Shown: positions 1,069-60,383 of the stretch, in pieces | Layout of the letters: each line of letters starts with the position of its first letter | Position numbering within the stretch: position 1 is the first letter of the stretch | Origin: Asterella californica | Lineage: Eukaryota; Streptophyta; Marchantiopsida; Marchantiales; Aytoniaceae | Assembly: GCA_036924285.1 (NCBI GenBank) | Contig: JAYKYS010000001.1 | Coordinates: forward strand, 1,907,501-1,971,500 | DNA: 64,000 nucleotides | Direction: 5' to 3' | Notes under the pieces: generated by a model | Database searches by the model: none | Told to the model about the DNA's origin: nothing | Seen by the model: only the letters and a program-made list of their open reading frames with translations | Program-made: the position numbers and the translations under genes

Positions 1069-3782
<2,714 letters not shown>

Positions 3783-14400: not shown

Positions 14401-17400
14401 CTAAATTTTCGCTCCGTCCTCGGAGTGAAGAGAGAACTTTCGTTGATGAAACAACTTCAACTTGTCATGATTTACCCGATCGAATCTCCTTCCTCCCAGC
14501 TCCTGAAGGTCATATGTGAAGTTGCTCCACACCTTATCTACAACAAAAGGACCAAAATATCTCGGAAGAAACTTCTTCCTAGCCCTCTTGAATCTGATAG
14601 CATCATACAACATAACCCAATCTCCGACTTGAAAAGGTTTTACCTCCCTCTTGCCCAACCTTTTGTCGTAACTCTTCTTTTGATACGCTTGAGCTCGTTC
14701 CATCCGGATCATCGCTATCGCTCGGGTCTCTTCCAACTCCATGAGTTGCTCCCTTCTTGATCTGACCACGTCTTCTCCTCTCGACCTCTTCAACTTTCGT
14801 TGAATAGTTTGAAAAGTATCCAATTCGAATTGGATGGGCAACTTGGACTCCACTCCATAAACCAGTCGAAATGGAGAGTACCCAGTAGAAGTCTTTGTTG
14901 TCGTTCGGTACTCCCATAAGATGGCATGTAGCCTCTTATCCCAAGTATGTTTCGCAGTCTCAACACCAGCATCTTTGGCGAGCATCATACAAAGTGTAAG
15001 ATTGGTCTTCTCCGCAAGACCATTAGCATTTGGCTTGTATGAGGTCGTTACTCGTGCCTTGATAGAAAAGTGTTGTAGCATAGCAGTAGTCATGCTCCCT
15101 ACAAACTCTCCTCCTCTATCCGAGACCAACTCTAACGGACATCCAAATCTGGTGATGATCCTCTCCCATAAGAATCTACCGACTTCTGTTTCATTGGTCT
15201 CTCTCAAAGGTCTAGCCTCTACCCACTTGGTACAATAGTCAGTGGCGACTACAATGTATCTATTTCCTCGAGGTGTCTTATTGAGAGGACCTACAAAGTC
15301 AATACCCCACTTCTCAAATGGTCCTAATATTGGAATTGATCTTAACGGAGGTGTTCTAGTAGACTTCAGAGCAAATGCTTGACATACATCGCAAGTTTTG
15401 CAATAGTCTAAACACTCCTTGAAAATCCCTCTCCAGTGATAACCCGCATCCAAAATCTTGAAAGCTGTTATCTTACCAGCAAAGTGACCTCCGCAAACAG
15501 TGCCATCGTGAAACTCGTGCATCAGCTTGAACGCCTCCTTCTGACCAACTGCTCTCCTTAGTAAGCCATCTGCTCCTTGATGAAATAGAATTCCCTCCAC
15601 CATGGTGTAAGGTTTGCATCTCTTGATCAACGCGTTACGTTCTCGGGTATGCATACCTTCCGGAAAAGAGCCATCTGCAAGGAAACTCCAGATTTCCTTA
15701 TACTCGTCCGGTATCTCCTCAATGCTTGTGATGGTCATCAGATGCTCGTCTGGAAACGAATCGTCAAATGGTTCTTCTCCCTCATCATCATAAGCCCTCG
15801 ACAAAAGATCAGCATTCGCATGCTTTTTCCCTGGTCTATCTTCGATCACATAATCGTATTCTGTTAGAAGGATCTTCCAACGAGCAATACGACCTTCGGC
15901 ATTAGGCTTATTAAAGATATACTTTAAAGCCTTGTGATCTGTGACTATGGAAAATTTCCCTCCTAGCAAGTAATGTCGGAATTTCTTCAATCCAAAGATC
16001 ACCGCTAATCCTTCTCGTTCAGTCACGGAGTAATTCTTCTCCGCTGGAACCATCTGCCTACTAGCATAAGCTATAGGATGATCATGCCCATCTCCATCTA
16101 GCTGACTTAATGTACATCCGATTGCTACATTGGAGGCATCCGTATATAGAATAAATGCTTTACTCCACTCAGGTTTAGCAAGTATAGGAGCTGTCACCAA
16201 TGCCTTTTTCAGCTCCTCAAATGCTTCCTTTGCCTTCTGATCATGCACTATCAAGTCAAAATCAACTCCCTTCTTCATGTACATAGTCAAAGCTATTGCT
16301 TTGTTTGAGAAGGAAAAGACAAACCTACGATAATATCCAACCATGCCAAGAAACTGCCTCAACTTTGTCAAGTTGATCGGAAATGGAAGATCCACAATCT
16401 TCTTCACCTTTTCAGGATCTACCGCAATCCCATTCTTGGAAATGATGTGCCCTAACAGCAGACCTTCTTCGCAGCCAAAGATGCACTTCTCTGGATTCAG
16501 AGAAGCGTTAGCTTGCTCCAACCGCTGCAGAACTTTGATCACATGATCAAAGTGGTCCTCCTTTCTTCCGTACACACAGAAATCATCAATGAAATCACGA
16601 ACAAACTTTCCTATGAATGGTTCGAACACCTTGTTCATGAACCTCTGAAACGTGGCCGGAGCATTACACAGTCCGAATGGCATCACTCGAAATGCAAATG
16701 TTCCCCAAGGAGTAGTGAAAGTAGTCAACTGCTGGTACTCCTGTGCTATCTTGATCTGGTTGTATCCACTATAACCATCACCAAAGCTGTACCACTCATG
16801 ACCGGCAACTTCCTCCAAAATCTCATCTATAAATGGTAGAGGATAATAGTCCTTCTTGGTAACTGCATTCAGCTTCTTATAGTCTATGCACACTCGCAGC
16901 TTACCATTCTTCTTCTTGACAATCACAATGGGTGAAACCCATTCTGAGTTCTCCACCTCATAGATGAAACTCGCCTCCTTCAACTTGTCTATCTCCTCCT
17001 TGACCATCATTGCCGTTGTGGGATTGACCCTTCTCTGCTTCTGTCGAACTGGTCTTGCGTGCTCCTCCAATTCGATTCGATGAGTCTCGAGAGTCACCTC
17101 CTTCAAATCCTTGTAGCTGAAAGCAAACACATGGATATATTTTCGAAATATATCTAGGAATCTACTTTTCTCCTCTTGAGTGACATTGATACCAAACTTC
17201 AGGGTAGAGAGTCTTCTCACAATCTCTGCCTCACTCAACTCTTCTTTGTCAGGATCTTTCTCCACTGCTGGTCGAGGCAACAAGTCAATAGCACTAAGCT
17301 GATGTAATGATTCATCTCGACCAAATCCTTCGTCCTCAGACGAGGATTCTTGATCGTAAGAATCGCCGGTATCTACTTCTGAGACACTCTGATCGTCCTC

Positions 17401-19287
17401 CGTATCAGATTCCCAGTAGTCACTAGTGGGTCTATCAGAGTCAGAAGTCACAACTCCAACACCCGAGAGAGGAACTATCACTCTATGATCTCTAGGCCCA
17501 ATCCGTAAGTATCCCTTGTGCCACCTATCCGTGGTGCGCACAGCTCTCAACCAAGGCCTACCTAGGAGCAAATCATAACTAGAGTCCTTTAACACTTGAA
17601 AGGACATCAATGTTTGAACTCCCATCACAGACACGACCACCTTCTCTAACACGCCAAGAGGTCTTACCCGTTGCTTGTTAGCCATCCCCACGACAATGCT
17701 AGCCGGGCGAGTTGGTTCCATCCCCAACTTCTTCATCAATCTCTCCGATATGGCGTTTACAGCCGACCCTCCATCCACCAATACGTCAGAGACGTAGTGA
17801 CCATTCAATCGGACTTCAATCTTTGAAGCCCTAGTGCATACCTCTGAAGCATGCACATCCACCACACCAACTCCCACTGACTTTGATGTCTTGCTCTTGG
17901 GTTTCTTCTTCTTGCTTCTCTTAGAACTCAGTCCTCCTCTGAGTTCCCTTCGTAAGCTGGGATTAAGTGCGATCAGTTGTCCAACAGTGATGTTGGCTTT
18001 CTGAGCACCCACATCTTCAACCACATCATATCCCGCTTGGGAAGATGAAATGGTGAAATCCGCCATCCCCAGCTTCCTTCTTGGCTCCCTTGGTGTACTC
18101 GAAACATTACTCGAACGAGTACTTCTACTTGCTGACTCCTCCATGAAAACCGGTTCATCAGAAAATCGAGTTCTTTTTCTTTCTTGAGCTAAAAGCTCCA
18201 CCGGTGCATGAGAAGAGTTTGAACTCTCTCCTTTCTCGTAGATGGGATCTCGCACGACATCGATAGTAGCCACCCCTTTGTCTCGTCCTTGTGATGGATT
18301 TCCTCCACCCACATTCATTCTGACAGCTTCGGCACCTCTTGCTCCGTTGTTAGGACAATTTCGCTGGAAATGAGAACCTCCACACGTCCAACAAGTGATT
18401 CCTCCAAAGTTACCTTGGTTGCCTCCAAAGTTACCTTGATTTCCTCGGTTGGGATTGTTGTCGTAACCTCTTTGACCTCCTCCTCCACCTTTGTTCCTCC
18501 ATTCTCGTAACTGCACCACATTTATCTTGAGATCCGCAAGAGTGTCAGTGATGCTCTTCAGCTCGGCATGAAAATCAGAGGTGGCAGTAGACATCGTTGT
18601 TGGGACAAACGGTCTTGGCACCACCGTTGGAGTAGGAGCTGACGTTGAAGCAATCACCAATTGTGATGGTGCAGGTGCGATCGTTGTGACTACACCAGGA
18701 GTCGGAGTTGACACCAGAGCAACATGATGAGGTTGGATGATATCTCCTTCATCCAAACTCTCTTCCATGTTTGTCGCAATCTTGATGGCCTCCGCTTTGG
18801 TTGCTGGCTTCTCGTACCTCACTTGGGTTCGAATTGAAGGCCTCAACCCTCCCACCAAGTTCTTGGTCAACACTGCTCCAATCCCCGCCATCGTTAGCTC
18901 CACATTGTCTCCACTCTTCCGTAGGACCGTCCGAAACCGTTGCTCCAACTTATCCACCCTTTCGGCATATTGCCGAACTTTCTCGTCGTCACGTTGCTTC
19001 AAATGAGTAAGCTCCACCATGAGCTTCTCATAACTCTCTTCTGGAAGAAATTCTTCGATGAGTGCATTACTCAACGTCTCCCATGTGTCCTCAACTGCAC
19101 CAGGTGTCTGGCTCTTCACTCGGTCTTCATACCACGTAAGAGCAAAATCTTCTAAAAACTCTGGCAGTAACAACACCCATTCTTCCTTCCTTCTCACGTT
19201 GTTTCCGATGCAACCCCTTTTGAAGTCTCGAACAAACGGTTCTACATCTTCATTGTCCTTCCCATGAAACACGGGTAGCTTTCCCAT
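14401..19287 (-). CDS. Ty3/gypsy Gag-Pol polyprotein, intact
   Basis: One 1628-residue frame from ATG at 19287. Domains in order: retrotransposon Gag (about 35-125, with EWVLLLPEFL and ALTWYEDRV); a zinc knuckle at 299-311 of form CX2CX3HX4C, one residue shorter than usual; aspartic protease around 500-580 with VDGGSAVNAIS (Asp505; DGGS rather than the commoner DSG/DTG) and LLLGRPWL; reverse transcriptase about 770-950 with FRVMPFGLCNAP and catalytic FIDD (Asp901-Asp902); RNase H with YTDAS (Asp1050); integrase with an HHCC zinc site (about 1257-1302) and D1330, D1390, E1426, spaced DD35E; a GPF motif at 1579-1581. There is no chromodomain. Gag and Pol are fused without a frameshift. The LTR promoter on the minus strand should drive it. 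All catalytic residues are present, so it may be active. Confidence 0.97.
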   Translation of the reverse strand: MGKLPVFHGKDNEDVEPFVRDFKRGCIGNNVRRKEEWVLLLPEFLEDFALTWYEDRVKSQTPGAVEDTWETLSNALIEEFLPEESYEKLMVELTHLKQRDDEKVRQYAERVDKLEQRFRTVLRKSGDNVELTMAGIGAVLTKNLVGGLRPSIRTQVRYEKPATKAEAIKIATNMEESLDEGDIIQPHHVALVSTPTPGVVTTIAPAPSQLVIASTSAPTPTVVPRPFVPTTMSTATSDFHAELKSITDTLADLKINVVQLREWRNKGGGGGQRGYDNNPNRGNQGNFGGNQGNFGGITCWTCGGSHFQRNCPNNGARGAEAVRMNVGGGNPSQGRDKGVATIDVVRDPIYEKGESSNSSHAPVELLAQERKRTRFSDEPVFMEESASRSTRSSNVSSTPREPRRKLGMADFTISSSQAGYDVVEDVGAQKANITVGQLIALNPSLRRELRGGLSSKRSKKKKPKSKTSKSVGVGVVDVHASEVCTRASKIEVRLNGHYVSDVLVDGGSAVNAISERLMKKLGMEPTRPASIVVGMANKQRVRPLGVLEKVVVSVMGVQTLMSFQVLKDSSYDLLLGRPWLRAVRTTDRWHKGYLRIGPRDHRVIVPLSGVGVVTSDSDRPTSDYWESDTEDDQSVSEVDTGDSYDQESSSEDEGFGRDESLHQLSAIDLLPRPAVEKDPDKEELSEAEIVRRLSTLKFGINVTQEEKSRFLDIFRKYIHVFAFSYKDLKEVTLETHRIELEEHARPVRQKQRRVNPTTAMMVKEEIDKLKEASFIYEVENSEWVSPIVIVKKKNGKLRVCIDYKKLNAVTKKDYYPLPFIDEILEEVAGHEWYSFGDGYSGYNQIKIAQEYQQLTTFTTPWGTFAFRVMPFGLCNAPATFQRFMNKVFEPFIGKFVRDFIDDFCVYGRKEDHFDHVIKVLQRLEQANASLNPEKCIFGCEEGLLLGHIISKNGIAVDPEKVKKIVDLPFPINLTKLRQFLGMVGYYRRFVFSFSNKAIALTMYMKKGVDFDLIVHDQKAKEAFEELKKALVTAPILAKPEWSKAFILYTDASNVAIGCTLSQLDGDGHDHPIAYASRQMVPAEKNYSVTEREGLAVIFGLKKFRHYLLGGKFSIVTDHKALKYIFNKPNAEGRIARWKILLTEYDYVIEDRPGKKHANADLLSRAYDDEGEEPFDDSFPDEHLMTITSIEEIPDEYKEIWSFLADGSFPEGMHTRERNALIKRCKPYTMVEGILFHQGADGLLRRAVGQKEAFKLMHEFHDGTVCGGHFAGKITAFKILDAGYHWRGIFKECLDYCKTCDVCQAFALKSTRTPPLRSIPILGPFEKWGIDFVGPLNKTPRGNRYIVVATDYCTKWVEARPLRETNETEVGRFLWERIITRFGCPLELVSDRGGEFVGSMTTAMLQHFSIKARVTTSYKPNANGLAEKTNLTLCMMLAKDAGVETAKHTWDKRLHAILWEYRTTTKTSTGYSPFRLVYGVESKLPIQFELDTFQTIQRKLKRSRGEDVVRSRREQLMELEETRAIAMIRMERAQAYQKKSYDKRLGKREVKPFQVGDWVMLYDAIRFKRARKKFLPRYFGPFVVDKVWSNFTYDLQELGGRRFDRVNHDKLKLFHQRKFSLHSEDGAKI

Positions 19288-19500
19288 CTTGTAACTACTC
19301 TTTCTACTCTTCTAATCGTCGTGCAATAACTACTCGCTAAAAGAGTACGAACATCACCAATTCCATTCGCGAATAATCTACCATAGGTAAAATGAAAGGA
19401 AATGGTTGTAACAACACCTCTTGTGCCATCTCTTCTCCCAAGGTAATCATGAGTCTGAGTCGCATCACCGCCTTCTCCACCATTCGAATGACGATCTCCA

Positions 19501-45690: not shown

Positions 45691-47825
45691 ACCTTCGTCC
45701 ATGTTATCTGTCCATCATATACACATCTTTACACGCTAATCTTTTTGTATTAGGTGTTCACTCGACTGTTTCGGTTGTGTTTCTATTATACGTATTCGAT
45801 ATTTATACTATTTATATGATTTTTAGTGTTTTTAGTGAAATACTTGAAAGTTATTAACGTGGAATTATGGCTGATTATCCAATGTTTGGATGGTTACTAC
45901 CTGAGCTTCAAGGAATTCTTAGCGGTTTCATTCAAGTTTTACTTAGGAAATGGATCTGACATGCTTAGAAAACATAATGAAAAGAGGAAGTCAAACTCAC
46001 ACCATAAATCATCAAAAAATGAATCTATCTAAATTATTTGGGTTTCAACTTCCAGTTTCACTACAAATTTTTATTGGAATGAAAATGGTTGTTTATAAAT
46101 ATGTTTTGGTATAAATGTATCCTTAATACTCATGTATATATATCGAGCTTAGCTTAAAGAGCTAGGTGAATATAATGGATACCGTGAGATCTTGAAGATA
46201 TATAAAAAAAACATCTCCACTAGAATTCATTGAATTTATGTAATATTGGAGATCATGTTAAAGAGTTTCATTTCATGTTATTAATCTTTTATAATATTTG
46301 TGAGCAAGCTATAATTGTTCTACCTTGCTCGAAAAATTAAATGATGTTTACTTCTAAAAGTTTATTCCTTACTGCACTATATCGGTACATATCTAAAAAA
46401 ATCATAATTTCTGTATGATTTTCAGTGTTTGTGAATTAAATTTACTATCAATGCTAAATAAGTTTATGGGTTTCCAGAAAATATAAATTTCTGAGAATTC
46501 CTGATCCAAAAAACTGAAAAGGGTGCGTTTTTTACTCATTTTCTATAAATCATAATTATAGTTTTCAGGAAAAAAAATCAGATTTCCTTTGCGAGAGCGA
46601 GTACCTGATTGTGATGAGCAGCTGTTGATAATAATATAATATATATATATATATATGTTTTCCGATGTACTTCAACAGAATATTTAGAAGAAAAAGAGTT
46701 AAACATTATCTTTATTATATATATAAGAAATTTGACTATAGAAGTTTCTCTATGGAAATTTGTAATACATACAAAAGATTTAAGATGATACAATGTGCTG
46801 AAAAGCCTGAAATCATTCAAAGGGAAATACAATGTACTGTGTCAATTCGTTCTGGATTTGAATCGTAATTTTATTTCTTCTTTTGAATTTGACATTTAAT
46901 CATTTTTTGACCAAATTGATTTATTTATTCTTATCAAAATAGCTCATCTTTCATTGCACTCCAATCTGACATACAGGATTTCGTATTCTTCAATATCATG
47001 TAAGATCAACATTTAATAAGTGTAAGACATTAAAAAATACTATAATGTGTAACTTGATTTATCCTAAAACTGCAGAAAATGTCAAGAGTTCTTGCTATTA
47101 TTAGCGAGTACTCGGTTAGTATAATTTGCTGACTAAGTTACACCTCCATAAGATGCTCTCAGATTTGTGCAAGCTGCTAAGAACTGCCATCCACATCCTC
47201 TGGCCACCCTGATGTGGTCATCCCACAATGAGCGATGTGTTATCACTGACTTCTCATTATTTAATTTCGTGCAATTAGGAATCTTAAAAGCTAAATTTGT
47301 CTAAACTCTCGATAAATTTATGGTTGAGACGTTCATGGACCAATAAGTACCATTAAGAGTCGTTACGAAAGCATCGCTTATTGCTATGACTGAAAGCACT
47401 ACGTGATGCTTAAAGGAGGAGATTCACTGGGATATGTATATTCACTGGTTGTACAGTTTGGACGTCTCACTGCCGCTCTCTTCATTTCTCGTTATTCGAT
47501 TTTTTTAACGATACGATATTTCTGTTTTGGCTCATTTTTTCGTCCAACATTTTTTCTCCAGGTTAATATTGTACGTTTCTTTCCTTAACCGTTAAATAAT
47601 TTCGGTTCCCTGCAAGATGTTCTTCACTTCGAAAATTGGAGTTTCACATGCAAAGACAAACCGGCACCAGTTCATTTCTTTGTCACGAACCACTGGTTTC
47701 CTGACAAAGCCACCGGACGGATACTGCTCCATGTACGAGAGGAGAAAGGCTACGGTGAGCCAGCTTTATTTCATTCTGAATAAAAAAAGAACACAAGTCT
47801 CATATCCTTGAAGACACACAACAAT
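45691..47825. other. AT-rich intergenic stretch
   Basis: No gene recognised. It includes an (AT)n run at about 46632-46657. Short open frames are of random character. Confidence 0.45.
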
Positions 47826-47977
47826 AGACAGCTTGTCCAACTATACATCTACGTCTTCCAGAGCAGACAGTCACGCCTATGCGTATACTGTACTGGAGTC
47901 AAGACAGCTTGTCCAACTATACATCTACGTAAGAGCAGAGAGTCACGCCTATGCCTATACTATACTGGAGTGAAGAT
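47826..47977. repeat. Two-copy 76-bp tandem repeat next to the Rep gene
   Basis: The unit AGACAGCTTGTCCAACTATA.. followed by CATCTACGT and AGTCACGCCTATGC starts at 47826 and at 47902, each copy closing with TACTGGAGT.AAGA. It lies 85 bp beyond the end of the Rep-like gene, on its 3' side, and might be part of an element terminus. Confidence 0.85.
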
Positions 47978-48060
47978 TGTCCTCCGCAGCAAGAGCTATG
48001 CCAAGGGGAACGCCCATGTCGATAGTACAGTGGACTGAAGACGGTCCTCGCCACCAACAG

Positions 48061-49142
48061 CTACGTTCGAATTGGACTGCACACCCTGTCGGAGGCGTTG
48101 CCTGCGGGCAAAACATGAAGAAAAATATTAGAAAGATGAAAACGAGGCATACGGTATACAGTCGAACCGAAAAACTGGAATAGTTACCTTCAAACGCTCT
48201 ACTGCAGCTCATGTTTCTCTCCAACGCACTGCAAACAGGCATGTATTCTGGGAACGCATCCACTTCATTGAAATTTGGTACTGTTCTGTTGCGGACCGCA
48301 GGAGAAGCTGCAAGTATATACTCTTCTTCTTGCTGAATGTCCGCGTCTGGCTGTTCCACGGTGAAATAACGTGCTCGTGATTGCGCAAAGAACACATTAT
48401 CTATGTCTGCAATGGTAACTGTCTCAGGACGGATTATTGCTTTCCAGAGTGAGTCAGAACGTGCCTTCTGAATGCCACAAGCCATGAGCCATCTGCAAGA
48501 AGGATTATACTTACCAGATCGTATCATGGATCTTAAACAAGTTCGAAGAGTTGTACCTAGAGGATGCACACTACGATACTTATTAAACTGTAACGCTCGC
48601 TGCAATATATTGCTGTGATTCAGCTCGACTCTATTTTTCATATCTGCGGCACCAAACAGTGTGAACAGCTCTTCCCCATCTTGCAGCATGGACTCCGTAA
48701 TGTTTTTCATCGCTGATTCGTGGTGTAACTGCCCTTTGTCCTTCATACAATACCCCACCATGCCAACAAACGTGTGCAGACCTCTGTTAGTTAATAGTTT
48801 TACACACACCTGCCCACCAAGAGATCTGTCAGTGCCCTTCCATCCCAACACAGACAGTAGACGTTGCTTGACCTGTACAGTGCTAGTGACCTGGAGTGAA
48901 ATAACTCCCTGTATGTGCAGATGTAGTAAGGTTCCTCCCCTCTCTACAGATAATAACCCACTTGTACACTCATGATGGAGAAAGCGACACAAAGGCGGCC
49001 AGTTGCACATATCGAGATCTCCTCCTGTACAGTTCACAGTGAGTGACATCTCGAGAAGTTTGGGAGAAGGTACTCTACGCGTGCCTGGAAGAGGTTCTGG
49101 GACTGCAGCACGTCTCGCTCTGGCAGCTCGACAGAGTAACAT
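48061..49142 (-). CDS. Rep-like HUH endonuclease (replitron- or CRESS-like)
   Basis: The main exon 49142-48188 opens at ATG; an 86-bp GT-AG intron (48187-48102) removes a pyrimidine-rich stretch that would otherwise read as a false membrane helix, and a 41-nt exon ends at a TAG (48063-48061), giving 331 residues. Three Rep motifs appear in the right order and spacing: MSLTVN (residues 32-37, motif I), HLHIQGVISL with the His-hydrophobic-His metal site (H74, H76, motif II), and VGYCMKDKG with the candidate nucleophile Tyr131 and Lys134 (motif III). Such enzymes nick one DNA strand and attach to it through Tyr. The part after motif III (MKNRVEL, then LRSMIRSGKYNPS, SLWKAIIRP, DIDNVFF) matches my recollection of replitron Rep proteins. 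No Walker A helicase follows. A polypyrimidine tract and AG sit just upstream of the ATG, suggesting an earlier exon. Confidence 0.65.
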
Positions 49143-49479
49143 GACTCGGATGGTGTTTACAGAGAAAGGGAAAAATTACAAGATCGACGTCATCACAAAT
49201 ACAATGGACACAATTTAAACGATAGACAGCGCTAACAGTAGGCTTCAAGAGATGACGGTCAGTGGGAGAATGTATAAACTTTGGATAAGAGAAAACAAAC
49301 GAGTTACAGTCTCGGAGCACCAACCAACTTCCCTCCGACTGCACGTAATGAAACGGTCCTATCAATGCTTGAAGACAACAACTTGTGGTACAGAAGGAAA
49401 TACAAATCAAGACGAAATCCAAGGATGGAATAAGAAATTCGGGTAGAACTGTACAGAAGGGAAAGTCTAGGTAGATGTA

Positions 49480-49851
49480 TGCACGCTGTTTATATAGTTC
49501 AACGTCTCCAAATGAGACGCAAGTTCTAGAATAAAGTGGGTATGGTGGTGTACTATGAGGTCTCCGAAAGCGATCAACTGTGCAACGCTTTTGATGACTG
49601 CACACAGCTTCAAACTGATGGAAAGGAAAACTGTCGATCTTCAATGTATCATCTGTAGAGGTAGTATCACATGCGGGAGAGGAAGGAATAATGAGGGGCT
49701 CAGTAGATTCAGATGGCACGGAAGAATGAGGTGGGGTTGCAGGTATTGAATCCAAAAGATCGTCCTCCGATGATTCATTCTCTTCGGTTTCGGCAACTAT
49801 TTCCAAAGGAAGTCCTATAGGTTTCTCGTCCGACATGGTTTTCAATTCCAT
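49480..49851 (-). CDS. Probable upstream exon of the Rep-like gene (acidic N-terminus)
   Basis: ATG at 49851 opens a frame on the same strand. Residues 1-120 or so are sensible protein: acidic and Ser/Pro-rich (ENESSEDDLLDSIPATPP), then a Cys/His/basic patch (CSHQKRCTVDRFRRP). From about 49480 onwards the frame becomes hydrophobic and Cys-rich in a way typical of translated intron, although it stays open to 49075. The most economical reading is an exon ending at about 49480-49500, an intron of about 330 bp, and the acceptor just upstream of the Rep ATG at 49142. The exact donor is not settled; joining would add an acidic tail of unknown role to the N-terminus of Rep. It could also be a separate small gene. 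Confidence 0.4.
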
Positions 49852-50560
49852 ATGAAGAGAAGGAAGGCGACGGAGTACTTAGCTTATGCAAGAAACAAGT
49901 AGAAGTAGACCGCGAAGAGTCTCCATCGCAAAGAGAGGTTGTTGGTATCGCGAGGTAGGCTGACGCTTGGAAAAGCCCACCCAGTCCAGGCCCCTCCGTC
50001 CATACTCCGAATCCTACACGGAACAGAGCGATACGCATGAAATGCTGCTGTCGCGAGGCATGAGAAATGCAAAAAAGTGACCGCTCTAGACGAGGTCGTT
50101 GTTTCTCCCATGCTGTCTTGCCTCCAATTGGACATATGAGATGAGGCCGAGGAGTATTCCTCGTCATGACCTTACGGACGTCTCGTCTGGAACTGCAATC
50201 CCCTTCCCGGCCCGTACCCTGCAAGGCAGATGAATCACAAGGAGCCAATCAGTTGGCGAGCAAGAAAGAAATCACACGCTAGCGATTCCATCAGGACAGC
50301 GAGAAATCAATTCTGCTGGCTATCATCACTTCCCGTCTCCTCGTTTCTCAGAAGAATCCAGCAGCGAATGTACGCGATAGCATATCGATTGTAAAGAGTG
50401 CTTCTTGATTGTAAACGCAATCGTCAACAACGTGCGCACAGTAATCGGCAACAGCCTCTTGATTGTAAACGCACGGACGATAACCGTCGCATGCGATTTG
50501 AAACGACGAGATGCGATCACAGGATGGAAGAAAGAAAAACTCCCTTCCGTTTTGTCGCAC
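49852..50560. other. 5' flank of the Rep-like gene
   Basis: No other gene recognised. Around 50380-50500 the word CTTGATTGTAAACGCA recurs (near 50403 and 50459), with variants, in a stretch of short repeated motifs, possibly part of an element end. Confidence 0.4.
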
Positions 50561-50566
50561 GGAAAG

Positions 50567-50680
50567 GACCTGTTTGCCTTAATTCGCCCCTTCCCCTGCA
50601 GTAACTCGGAATTCCTGAGAAAAAGGCCCTGTTTGCCTTAATTCGCCCCTTCCCCTGCAGTAACTTGGAGTTCCCGAGAA
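50567..50680. repeat. Two-copy tandem repeat of about 60 bp
   Basis: CCTGTTTGCCTTAATTCGCC followed by CCTTCCCCTGCAGTAAC occurs twice (near 50569 and 50628), each followed by a TGGAGTTCC/CGGAATTCC..GAGAAAA variant. Confidence 0.9.
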
Positions 50681-53600
50681 AATTTTATGACAACATACTG
50701 ACGCACTGCCAGCCATTAACACGTTATTAACCAGCTAAACGGTCCGCTTACTACTGCACGGCTGAATACAACATAATGACGCTGCCTCGGAACGTTCAGG
50801 CAGCCGTCGTAAACCGTTTAAAACCAGCTAAACGGCCCGCGCCTCTTCTTTCTTGTCCTCTTCCTCCTTGTTGTACAAGGCGGTGGGGGAGGATATTCAC
50901 CTGAGAGAGGCATCATAATCACCCTGCCTTAGTTCGTTCATTATATTGAACACATATCATTTTTTAATTACAATTATTTTCATTTTTTCACGAATGGCGT
51001 GTTCTCTTCATTAGGTCTAGCACAAGCTAGAATGAATAAGTGACCTCCTTAACTTTTCGTTTTGTATTTCTTTTTTTTTACGATAAATTGTCACTTATTC
51101 GCTTTGTAGTTAATTTTAGCGCTTCGCAACTTTCAGTAAAGTTTTTTGGTCCGGAAGCTCTATGCAGGCTATTCTTTTCCTGGCAGCAGGATTCAAGCTC
51201 AAGTGGGAGAGATTCCAGACACGGTCTCTAACGAAGATAGCTATAGCTATACGTGATCATGTTAACTTCTTATAGCTAATTGTTGTCATTACATGGTCAA
51301 GTTAATATTATCACATAATGACAGTTCCAAGACTGTTTGTGATATTTGTCCCCAGCGCTCGTCACACAAACAACCATATCTCCCAATGACATCACGAGAT
51401 TTTCAGACCCTCCAAAATCGCGTGTCTTTTTCCTTGTTTCTAGAATAACGTCACTTTGGCTGCATATCTAGAATAACGTCACTTTGGCTGCATATTCACC
51501 TCATGTACGCTTAAGTAAATGCGGTGTACATTAATTTATGCTCTAACTCTTCTCAACAAAAAAATAAGATATAAATTAATGTTTTCAGAAAATGAAACTT
51601 TTTGAGGATAAGTGTACGAGACTTAAACCCCCAGCAGCGTATCAGTCAGGCCTTCACTTATGATTTATATTTTGATCCGCTTGCAACTCAGAGATCGATT
51701 AACATATATTAATTATGAATTAATTTTATCTTTCACAATAGCTTATTATAATATTACTTTATAAAATTTACACATTTTTTGATAAGAAAAAATGAAATTC
51801 AGTGTACAAGGCCGTGGAGAAGAATATTCACTACAAACTTGATCACTTTGGGATCATTCTTGTAAACCATGTGCCATATGAAACGTAAATAGTAGAGGAC
51901 TTATTCATACTAGCCAAACAGCCAATAGTAGATAATTATTTATAAGGCAAGAGTTTCATTATTGGGTATCTCAAGCTAGCTAGACTTGAACTATATGATA
52001 AGGTACTTCATAAGAGAGACGACTCTCACTTTGCGATGGAACTTTACTGTGCACATCTTCAACGCGTCCAAAGCTTGAGATCTACTTCATTATACACTTA
52101 TGCCCTGCAATTGGCTCTTAGCTATGGTAACGTGCGCAGATCTTTTTGATTTCTATCGCTTTGGTTACGCATTATTACCCCGGTTTCTTCCCTTTTCACT
52201 TTCTTTCTTTGGTTCTTCCTTCTACTACTCACCTAAGTATGTGTTTTATATACGTGCAATTGTCTTTTCACCCCACTTCTGTGTCAGTCATCACTTGAAA
52301 ATATGTTTGTGCGGTTGCTTTTCCAATTCTACGCCCTCTTGGATTATGGAGAACGCCACCCTTCTGTGCTAATTGTCCTCTGAGAGCACCTGAGCTTTTG
52401 ACGTATGTTGATGTGGGAATCAAAAACGGTGTGAAGCCGCACATCTTTCACTTTTAGGTTTGCTTTTTCCTTCAGGTCTCCTTAGACATGGCTTCCGATA
52501 CCTCGAAGACCGCCAATACGACTTCAAATCACTCGGTGATCACATATACGATAGATACGGCACCATTGGCTAAGATCCAATAAGTCTCAATTATTGAAGG
52601 TGGTGAGGTCAAAGCAGATGGAGTGCTTGTACAAGCAGAACTACATACATGGCTCAAACACCTTCGGATGTTCAATTAACAAGCCTTCTTTACGTTTTGT
52701 TTTGAGAGTGTCCTTACTCTGGAGATTTTTAGAGGATGGGTCACTGCAACCTGGATACGGTTCGTGTCGTGGATCGGCTTGTTGTTGAAAGGGAGGATTG
52801 GGAGACAAATTTTTCTGACCTTGCTCAAAATGTAAATTTGAGGACACCGTTATGTAAGATATGTTACGTAGACAAATTTGGTTCTTGAACCGACTCAAAT
52901 CTCAAATGTAGGTTAGACGGAAAGGTTATGAGAGGTTGAAAGTTTGACAAGTTGAGGAGACAATATGCTGACATGGCCGTCCGAGCACTAACATGTGACA
53001 CTTTGCTGACATGGAACATTCTGGAAAAAGTATTGATGTGGAAATTTGCTGACTAGATATTTTGCTGATATGGCATATTGTTGATTGTGCATTTTGCTGA
53101 CGTATAAATGTTGATTTGGTCAAATTCTTGACTTGATGATCTACTAAGGTGGTCATGTTCACTAGGCTAGGAGGGTGACATGACACTTAAGCGGCATGAT
53201 GTGATGTGGATTTTGTGATGAAGTATAAGGGTATTGTTATATGATGTTGAGGTGGAAGGATGGCAGATGTGACATCATGCATGCATGTCATGTGTGTCGT
53301 GATCTTCAGTCTTAATATCAGCTGCAGACGCGAACAACAGAACCCTAGCGGCCTTACGTTAGGTTATGAATGTTGCGAGTAAGACTTAACAGCTTGATCG
53401 AGAAGTCAGAACAGATGAACCTTAAGTGGTTTCTTGGACCAAGATTGGAACATTTGGTTAGGACATAGGGGTCTATCCCAATCTAGAGCTTGATCACGGT
53501 TCCTCAGAAAAATGTTAAATGTTGGATTGTGAGCGGAGCTCCATGTAAGATCTTGAATTGAACGAGGTATCATTGGAAATGTCTCGGCGATGATAATAGA

Positions 53601-58042: not shown

Positions 58043-59806
58043 CTAAGCTTCGATCTTTTCCAGTTCGCTATTCTGTTCACTGCTCCAATCTGGCAGCTTA
58101 ATTTTCTTTGACGGGCGCCTCCGTATCATTCTCATTAGGCGATTTTGTTCCACAGCGTCCGGTATATACAGTGCAGTAGGTGACGCTGGTTTAGTGGCTA
58201 TTATTACAGGTAGCTTACCAGGCGGAGGTCTCCCATCTGGAAATTCTTGGCCGTTATAAGGTGAAAACAGAGGAGGGCCCCTGGCAATCAGCCGGTGCAG
58301 CAAGTCCCTCAAGTAATCAAGTGATATTCTGTACTGTCCTCTGTGCAGTTCGTCTCTCAAGTCCGTGTGATGTTGGAACCAGTAACTTGTTAGAAGCTTA
58401 AACATATGTCTAAGAACCATCCGCATGGGTACGGGATACTTAAGAACCAGGTCGAGATACTCTAAACACAACACTCTCTCATCGATGATCTTCAAGGATG
58501 GATTCGTGGGGTCTTGCTCCATGACTGTTCTATATCCTGCAAAGAGAGCCGGATTCTCCAACAGGGACTCGGCTGACATGACTCCATCCACTCTTGTAGC
58601 TGCCATGCAAGCTTCCACATCTTCCACCCATCTGATATTACCATTGGCAAGAACTGGGATCCTCACTGCTTCTTTCACTGACCTAATGGCATTCCAATCA
58701 GCCCGCACAAGTTGGCTCAACTTCTGCTCTCTAGTTCTCCCATGCACTGCCAGCAAAGAGCACCCTGCTGCCTCCAGCATTCGAGCATAGGCTACTGTAT
58801 CCTCCAGCTCCGGGAATATTCTAATCTTACAAGAAACTGGGACTGACAAATTAGATGCCAGGTGAGATACGAGTGAGTGGACGAGAGTCAAATCATCCAT
58901 CAAAAAAGCACCATAATTGCCCCTTCTGGCAATTCTCTGCGGGCACCCTAAGTTGATATCCACATAATCACACTGAGACTGCACTAGTAGAGCTGCTTGT
59001 AGGAGTGTTTCAGGATCATTCCCACAGAACTGCACTACGAGAGGACGATCCCCTTCGCAGGTCGAGAATTCATCCACTCTGTAATTTCTATCCTCCAGGA
59101 ACACCCGCGAATGGAGCATGGGAGTGTAAGCTGCTGTTGCTCCGTATTTCCTGCAGAGCATCCTGAACGGAAGCTCCGACTGATCTACCATAGGTGCTAG
59201 AATCAGCTTTGGGACTCCGAGCTTCCTCCAGTGCTCCCACGCGACAACAACTCTCCTCTCCCTTTCCTCTGCCGATGGAAAGGGAGAGGAGAGACTCCGG
59301 CTCGACGTTTCGTCCACTTCATAGTCACCTACTGGGCAACCTTCTCCTGTCAGATCACATTCATATTCTTGGCTCCCAAGATCGTCAACAGCAACCATAT
59401 TTGCAGTTGCCGACGTAAAGTTGTCCACTGCTTCCAAGTTAAAGCCTACTTTCTCACCCTCCTGATCTGATACCACTATACCCTCCGACTTAGCCCTAAC
59501 CGCACCACCACCATTGATTCCAAATTTCACTCCATATCCTAAACTTCCCTCCTGCGCTGTCAGTTCACGCTTAAGACAATTCTCCTCTGTGTGTGACTCA
59601 TTCTCGCGGGAGAAAGCACGAGTCACTCTCAACTCAGCGGTAGAAGGAGCTGCTGAACAGCGTATAATGAAACCTAAACTCGTTCTGCTGAAGGGAGCAG
59701 AAAAAGCAGGAAGCCATCTTCTACTTGATGGAGCTGGTCCCCGTCCTCGACCGTAAAACAGTTCGGGAGCGCTGATAAGAGCAGCACGCCCAATTACTGA
59801 CTCCAT
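58043..59806 (-). CDS. tRNA-dihydrouridine synthase, Dus1-like
   Basis: FMN enzyme that reduces uridine to dihydrouridine in the D loop of tRNA. One uninterrupted 587-residue frame from ATG at 59806. The catalytic barrel begins at about residue 198 with KLILAPMVDQSELPFRMLCR; VVQFCGNDP (258-265) and VDINLGCPQRIARRGNYGAF (282-301) follow, with the catalytic-position Cys288. VSCKIRIF, LLAVHGRTREQK (351-362) and IPVLANGNI (383-391) are the phosphate- and flavin-binding strands, and GVMSAESLLENPALF (408-422) closes the barrel. The 197-residue N-terminal extension is poorly conserved; its first 70 residues are Arg/Ser/Ala-rich with few acids, like a plastid or mitochondrial transit peptide. The ILAPMVDQSELPFR and RRGNYGAF forms fit Dus1 (positions 16/17). 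No intron is visible, notable for a plant gene of this size. Confidence 0.92.
   Translation of the reverse strand: MESVIGRAALISAPELFYGRGRGPAPSSRRWLPAFSAPFSRTSLGFIIRCSAAPSTAELRVTRAFSRENESHTEENCLKRELTAQEGSLGYGVKFGINGGGAVRAKSEGIVVSDQEGEKVGFNLEAVDNFTSATANMVAVDDLGSQEYECDLTGEGCPVGDYEVDETSSRSLSSPFPSAEERERRVVVAWEHWRKLGVPKLILAPMVDQSELPFRMLCRKYGATAAYTPMLHSRVFLEDRNYRVDEFSTCEGDRPLVVQFCGNDPETLLQAALLVQSQCDYVDINLGCPQRIARRGNYGAFLMDDLTLVHSLVSHLASNLSVPVSCKIRIFPELEDTVAYARMLEAAGCSLLAVHGRTREQKLSQLVRADWNAIRSVKEAVRIPVLANGNIRWVEDVEACMAATRVDGVMSAESLLENPALFAGYRTVMEQDPTNPSLKIIDERVLCLEYLDLVLKYPVPMRMVLRHMFKLLTSYWFQHHTDLRDELHRGQYRISLDYLRDLLHRLIARGPPLFSPYNGQEFPDGRPPPGKLPVIIATKPASPTALYIPDAVEQNRLMRMIRRRPSKKIKLPDWSSEQNSELEKIEA
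59251..59293. repeat. 17-bp inverted repeat inside the DUS coding sequence
   Basis: Perfect arms CTCTCCTCTCCCTTTCC (59251-59267) and its complement (59277-59293) around a 9-nt loop. It lies in codons for the low-complexity linker (SLSSPFPSAEERERR), and would fold in the mRNA. Confidence 0.9.
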
Positions 59807-60383
59807 GATAAGAAGGCAACTCTAGTTGCAACAGTAGAATTCCCTCTCAAAGTCCGAGCTCGCGTCCATGGAACACGAGTAAGGGTCAGGCCTGAATCAG
59901 AAGCATGACATCTGAACGAGGAAGTTCACGAGCAAGCAGAATGCGGGTTCAATACCTCACGCTCCTTCTGCCATCACTGATGTACGTACGTATCCAGCGG
60001 CAGTACTCAGATATTCACTCCCACGAAGCTCACGGCCCTAATTCTGAGCACCTGCAGAAGTTCGAGACAACGGGGGACTGAATAGTGTCGGTACTCTCCA
60101 AACTACTCTCCAAACCAGAGCCCGTCGTAGCTGAAACTTTCAATGTGGGTAATTTGGCAATTCCTGCATTCGACTGCCCTGTGAAATCTCAGGTGTGAGT
60201 TCCGTCTGAACCCTCAGGCGTCCAGAGATGCGTCAATGAGAGAAGAACAGTAAGTCCTGCAGACCTTTTCGAGCTTAGACTACTCTCAAATCTTGTTCCC
60301 GTCTTCGCATTTTCTTACACTTACTGGGCTTCAACGTCAGCTCTGCAGAATTCCATCGAAGAGAAGACGTCTGCTGTGATCTG

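Follow-up and report, generated by a model that had tools for sequence, protein, structure and literature searches.

Which kind of genetic element has brought a gene for a Rep/HUH endonuclease into a liverwort chromosome is the question raised by the locus described here. It lies on the minus strand of a stretch of 64,000 nucleotides of the Asterella californica genome (contig JAYKYS010000001.1, positions 1,907,501 to 1,971,500), which is called the window and in which all positions are counted. The initial annotation had proposed a spliced Rep gene belonging either to a replitron-like element or to an old captured Rep. Our analysis makes it highly probable that a true replitron, a eukaryotic transposon moving by means of a single-tyrosine HUH endonuclease without a helicase, is present here as one of its copies and in a two-gene variant, with an HUH endonuclease open reading frame (ORF2) and a separate, overlapping frame (ORF1). 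The coordinates of all features are compiled in Table 1.

The assignment of ORF2 is based on its domains, motifs and predicted fold. The Rep/HUH profile search advised by the initial annotation was passed, with Pfam matches to Replitron_HUH (PF21859; 55.8 bits at a cut-off of 28.5, E 7.6e-15) and Replitron_C (PF21860; 31.1 bits at a cut-off of 27, E 3.2e-07) above the curated cut-offs. The minus-strand frame 49142-47955 (unspliced) contains all three Rep motifs in the order originally described, namely MSLTVN (residues 32-37), HLHIQGVI (74-81) and YCMKDKG (131-137), residues being counted from the ATG at 49142. The metal pair had been placed one pair off, at H74 and H76; comparison of homologues gave H76 and Q/H78 as the conserved residues, i.e. 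the HUQ type. The single tyrosine of the YxxK motif (Y131, with K134) is present in the window and in all 27 homologues with a letter there. The predicted structure has a Rep/HUH fold and matches viral Rep domains. The ratio of nonsynonymous to synonymous substitution rates (dN/dS) of ORF2 has a median of 0.17 over 222 pairs of copies.

The self-search of the genome, likewise proposed at the outset, revealed a multi-copy element with common ends. With the best 40 of 562 candidates scored, the DNA search of the 516.7 Mb genome gave at least 41 rows, including that of the window, and the closest further copy among these 40 candidates was 96% identical to the window; a search with the left end gave only 6 rows from 5 candidates. 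Recent activity had been suggested earlier from the clean reading frame; since the nearest other copy is 96% identical, very recent activity is not evident. The clean frame had also been taken as a sign of domestication, and a domesticated single gene would be in line with it and with the dN/dS of 0.05-0.29 for ORF2 against the window; however, the gene belongs to a set of many scattered copies that share their ends, and the selection extends over the copies, as it would if it acted during transposition. Domestication is therefore extremely unlikely.

The element ends were compared in the ten fetched copies for which both ends were found (window, L009, L010, L011, L013, L016, L018, L019, L020 and L026). 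All ten end in GATAT on the right and have TAT in front of CAC or TCAC on the left; for the right end the agreement is partly by construction because the search pattern itself contained GATAT. In the window copy the 8-bp direct repeat ATATTCAC matches at 8 of 8 positions between both ends, and copy L018 has CAGGATAT on both sides, but the terminal repeat core common to the ten copies is only about TAT. TGTACA occurs close to each end (47450 and 50872), and no long terminal inverted repeat (TIR) linking the two ends was reported in the window copy. Since the genes are on the minus strand, position 50896 is the gene-side 5′ end. The possible subterminal hairpin near this end folds in the window copy, yet it is missing from some of the copies compared.

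Further end-like sequences were observed around these borders. About 0.7 kb past the element, at 51571-51831, there is another replitron right end in truncated form (TGTACAAGGCCGTGGAGAAGAATAT), with matches in L017 and L025. At 47424-47445 the left end is apparently preceded by its own partial tandem copy (ATTCACTGGGATATGTAT before ATTCACTGG), with a similar arrangement in L012, and a right-end-like GGATAT stands at the left junction of L010, L018 and L026. The duplicated-looking left ends could be due to target preference or be a trace of tandem joining.

Table 1. Positions of the genes, ends and repeats of the element within the window
Feature	Position	Strand	Remark
Whole element, probable replitron	47442..50896	-	3455 bp; homology among copies stops at 47434-47442 and 50896-50902
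Direct repeat ATATTCAC, left junction	47438..47445	.	ATAT then TCAC...
Two 72-bp tandem repeats, element 3′ region	47826..47976	.	
Predicted last ORF2 exon, NASDRVCSPIRT and stop	48061..48101	-	
Predicted ORF2 intron, GT..AG	48102..48187	-	86 bp
ORF2 exon, replitron HUH endonuclease and C-terminal domain	48188..49142	-	E67, H76, Q78, H123, Y131, K134
ORF1, acidic N-terminus, conserved core	49114..49851	-	about 245 aa
ORF1 motif C217-I-C219-x11-C231-K-H233 (CxC-x11-CxH)	49153..49203	-	SWIM-like pattern, Pfam not matched
Possible subterminal hairpin CCTTG-TTGTA-CAAGG	50866..50880	.	50-nt end folds at z -3.1 and -3.9
Direct repeat ATATTCAC, right junction	50893..50900	.	element end ..GGATAT

The fold and the HUQ-type metal motif would also fit a Rep captured from a circular Rep-encoding single-stranded (CRESS) DNA virus, i.e. 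of an endogenous viral element. Viral Reps carry a helicase domain. As the initial annotation had stated, no Walker A motif (GxxxxGK[ST]) was found in any of the six frames of 47442-50896, and the Pfam search gave no helicase family for ORF1 or ORF2, so that these searches revealed no superfamily 3 helicase like that of a CRESS virus Rep. A pattern scan of viral contigs returned 10 stretches, with no relative among them by tblastn. Taken together with the replitron-specific families, the many copies with common ends and the linked second reading frame, this leaves a viral origin with a negligible probability, and the old captured Rep of the initial annotation is disfavoured by the multi-copy element. 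Its other proposal, a replitron-like element, agrees with the Pfam families, the Rep fold and the common ends.

ORF1, the second gene, has its start at 49851 or 49836 and uses a reading frame other than that of ORF2. The stretch beginning at 49851 had been regarded as an exon lying upstream in the ORF2 gene; it is instead a coding gene separate from ORF2, in another frame and under selection of its own, as judged from codon comparisons between copies. Its dN/dS was below 1 in all 184 copy pairs kept (more than 100 codons, computable dS, dS above 0.15), with a median of 0.32, whereas comparisons with the window in the other two frames of this DNA gave medians of 1.21 (0.51-1.69) and 1.22 (0.86-1.81), from 21 comparisons each. 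The protein has a core GPFHY..SEGSWLVLRD....YPKF and, near its C-terminal end, NCVHCIC-x11-CKH. The terminal TAG at 49116-49114 is found in 17 of 19 sequences; in the window copy ORF1 is open on to 49075, because TAG reads GAG there.

The two genes are closely linked. By tblastn, ORF1 adjoins ORF2 in 18 of the 20 loci fetched for ORF2; it is missing from L014 and the main copy of L028 and present in secondary copies of L011, L015 and L028. When the genome was searched with the ORF1 protein, all of the best 150 of 2,056 candidates passed, and an ORF2 match was located directly behind ORF1 in each of 15 loci hand-picked from these 150 places, mostly less similar ones (3, then 12). Among the 15, L045 does not include enough of ORF1 to be matched by tblastn, and stops or frameshifts interrupt several of the ORF2 matches, most severely in L049; the first three loci have ORF1 and ORF2 proteins 45-54% and 75-78% identical to those of the window, respectively. 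A host-derived passenger restricted to one subfamily would fit the finding that no ORF1 homologue was found elsewhere, but ORF1 is constrained and present in all subfamilies sampled in the genome, down to about 37-45% identity, and the passenger reading is therefore very unlikely.

Whether ORF1 and ORF2 are made as one protein, with splicing or a ribosomal frameshift turning ORF1 into the N-terminal part of the endonuclease, was assessed at their overlap. The proportions of nonsynonymous and synonymous differences (pN/pS; L014 and L028 omitted) were 0.28 in the ORF1 frame and 1.04 in the ORF2 frame upstream of the ORF2 ATG, 1.64 and 0.21 within the overlap, and 1.46 and 0.47 between the ORF1 stop and motif I. 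The selected frame thus switches at an ATG that is conserved in 19 of 19 sequences holding the stretch (window and 18 copies) and in 14 of the 15 sampled ORF1 loci (Ile in L036), which argues against a fusion. A possible splice acceptor is given by an AG within 10 bases before this ATG in all 19 close sequences holding the stretch, but in the second subfamily 11 of the 12 copies shown lack an AG in the interval that separates the CKH codons from the start codon (L042 has one). In the distant, broken copy L049 (G000:C207:31244700-31246050) an ORF1-frame TGA overlaps the ORF2 ATG in a relative frame unlike that of other copies, an arrangement incompatible with a fixed frameshift.

A suggestive hint of fusion comes from the Riccia sorocarpa protein P0015 (632 aa), whose long N-terminus contains a faint ORF1-like stretch at about 106-159. 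It was the top of 29 proteins (E 0.02) with an ORF1 profile from which three frameshifted L023 pieces had been omitted, and its score was reached by 2 of the 1430 shuffles reported out of 2000 and by 3 of the 3871 reported out of 5000. Several other Riccia HUH proteins carry AT-hook-like N-termini instead. The single-protein reading is on balance unlikely. An independent start of ORF2 is favoured from the sequence comparisons, because the selected frame changes at the conserved ATG and because the ORF1 tail continues differently in the two subfamilies.

No homologue of ORF1 was found at E<=0.001 among 126 word-sharing candidates in the protein search, and PHROGs gave noise only. In Pfam no family rose above noise (best, FBD at 0.0047 in 1 of 11 members), and the SWIM profile had no match in the 11 members at E<=1, although the CxC-x11-CxH pattern is present, which resembles that of SWIM zinc fingers. 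Given the acidic N-terminus, this motif and the fixed linkage to ORF2, ORF1 probably serves as an accessory protein, most likely a DNA- or chromatin-binding one. Anti-silencing proteins of plant Mutator-like (MULE) transposons offer a parallel for such a role. We lean only slightly towards the further idea that ORF1 is the founder of a novel family of accessory proteins of transposons (e.g. for end binding, targeting or anti-silencing), a family defining a two-gene replitron branch. In this branch translation of the HUH protein would use the second, overlapping frame, either on the same transcript or on an alternative one. Judging from the weak match to the N-terminus of P0015, ORF1 may predate this genome. 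Its novelty is provisional: no second replitron gene was met in the titles and abstract openings of the literature searched, which did not cover the founding replitron paper.

The GT-AG intron of the initial annotation has exactly the 86 bp given there, and its removal, though not proven, would yield a sensible C-terminus. Taking out 48187-48102 joins FEG to NASDRVCSPIRT and gives a spliced protein ending in FEGNASDRVCSPIRT, with the stop at 48061; this end resembles LEGVASNCICCN of the Riccia proteins, of which 6 of 7 (P0001-P0006) terminate alike, with LEG or LER followed by SNC and a Cys-rich tail. Of 21 sequences, the window and 20 copies, 14 have GT and 7 have AT at the donor and 19 have AG at the acceptor, and in 20 of 20 copies the putative intron is less conserved against the window than the 313 bp of preceding exon. 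On the other side, the stretch is also open unspliced in L009, L019, L022 and the window, where 55 residues can be read if counting begins six codons ahead of the intron, and the intron lengths of 83, 86 or 92 differ only by multiples of three in the 6 sequences with ORF2 matched in one stop-free piece. L016 has a stop just ahead of the intron, and the spliced tails of L017 and L022 are unlike that of the window. Five of the seven sequences with an AT donor read GATAACTA; one reading of the AT donors is C-to-T decay on the other strand. All in all, comparison of the copies makes an intron at 48187-48102 well supported.

To our knowledge, the movement of replitrons has not been worked out in detail. 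By analogy with HUH enzymes, ORF2 would bind metal through E67, H76 and Q78, Y131 would nick single-stranded DNA at the short ATAT-containing repeats of both ends, and the freed strand would be joined to an ATAT-like target. The HUH protein would start at its own ATG inside the ORF1 tail. Several points weigh against the two-gene replitron. Many copies contain stops or frameshifts, and Y131 is lost in 3 of 23 copies or pieces of this genome. No target-site duplication of the 2-8 bp expected for replitrons is evident at the copy borders; L010 has a 10-bp flank repeat not abutting its left end. The structure models from AlphaFold are moderate for ORF2 (mean predicted local distance difference test score, pLDDT, of 71) and poor for ORF1 (pLDDT 33), and the function of ORF1 is a guess, as no homologue was detected. 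The ORF2 ATG and the ORF1 TAG are each conserved in part because the other frame constrains them, and the dN/dS and pN/pS figures are not probabilities because copy pairs are non-independent.

In its surroundings the window also encodes tubulin, peroxidase and dihydrouridine synthase domains, the host genes at 2423-3782 and 58043-59821 being those for tubulin (C-terminal domain matched) and dihydrouridine synthase, respectively. Genes of long terminal repeat retrotransposons, read as Ty3- and Copia-like, are present as well, among them an open gag-pol frame of 1636 aa at 14401-19311 that was read as a Ty3-type retrotransposon. The gene content marks the host as a plant, and the nearest relatives, together with the hosts enumerated in a review (PMC10741241), make a liverwort likely.

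A replitron branch with a second selected protein, mapped ends and stop-free ORF2 copies would make the strand cut, end recognition and the contribution of the orphan protein accessible to testing. For a eukaryotic DNA transposon with a pair of overlapping genes, it must also be asked by what route the second frame comes to be translated. The closest named sequences are the replitron HUH proteins of Riccia sorocarpa (P0001-P0006 and P0015; 33-50% identity). In a search of about 5.8 billion proteins the top five rows were all from this species, 36-50% identical and named 'Replitron HUH endonuclease domain...', and in a tree of 23 chosen rows the clade of the window stands beside three Riccia proteins (support 93/91). 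Riccia proteins that contain the HLH stretch have Asn in place of its first His, several carry AT-hook-like KRRPGRPPG repeats in their N-termini, unlike the window element, and only P0015 among them has the faint ORF1-like stretch. Helitrons are likewise HUH-driven eukaryotic transposons; their protein has a helicase and usually two tyrosines. Such a Rep-helicase fusion was not found in the window element, and the element ends differ. The HUQ-type metal motif is described for circoviruses (PMC9973303); the Rep endonuclease domains of circoviruses, nanoviruses and geminiviruses are 9-20% identical to ORF2 over the fold. Replitrons were reportedly named in 2023, by Craig in PNAS. The replitron section of a review describes them as 0.9-4 kb long, lacking a TIR and bearing short direct repeats of 5-11 bp at their termini, and this section names no second gene (PMC10741241). 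The window element resembles them in its HUH and C-terminal domains, its single-tyrosine motif, the lack of a helicase, the short direct terminal repeat, the absence of a TIR in the copy analysed and its length of 3.5 kb, and differs from them by a second conserved gene, ORF1, which is encoded in an overlapping frame and gave no Pfam family above noise.
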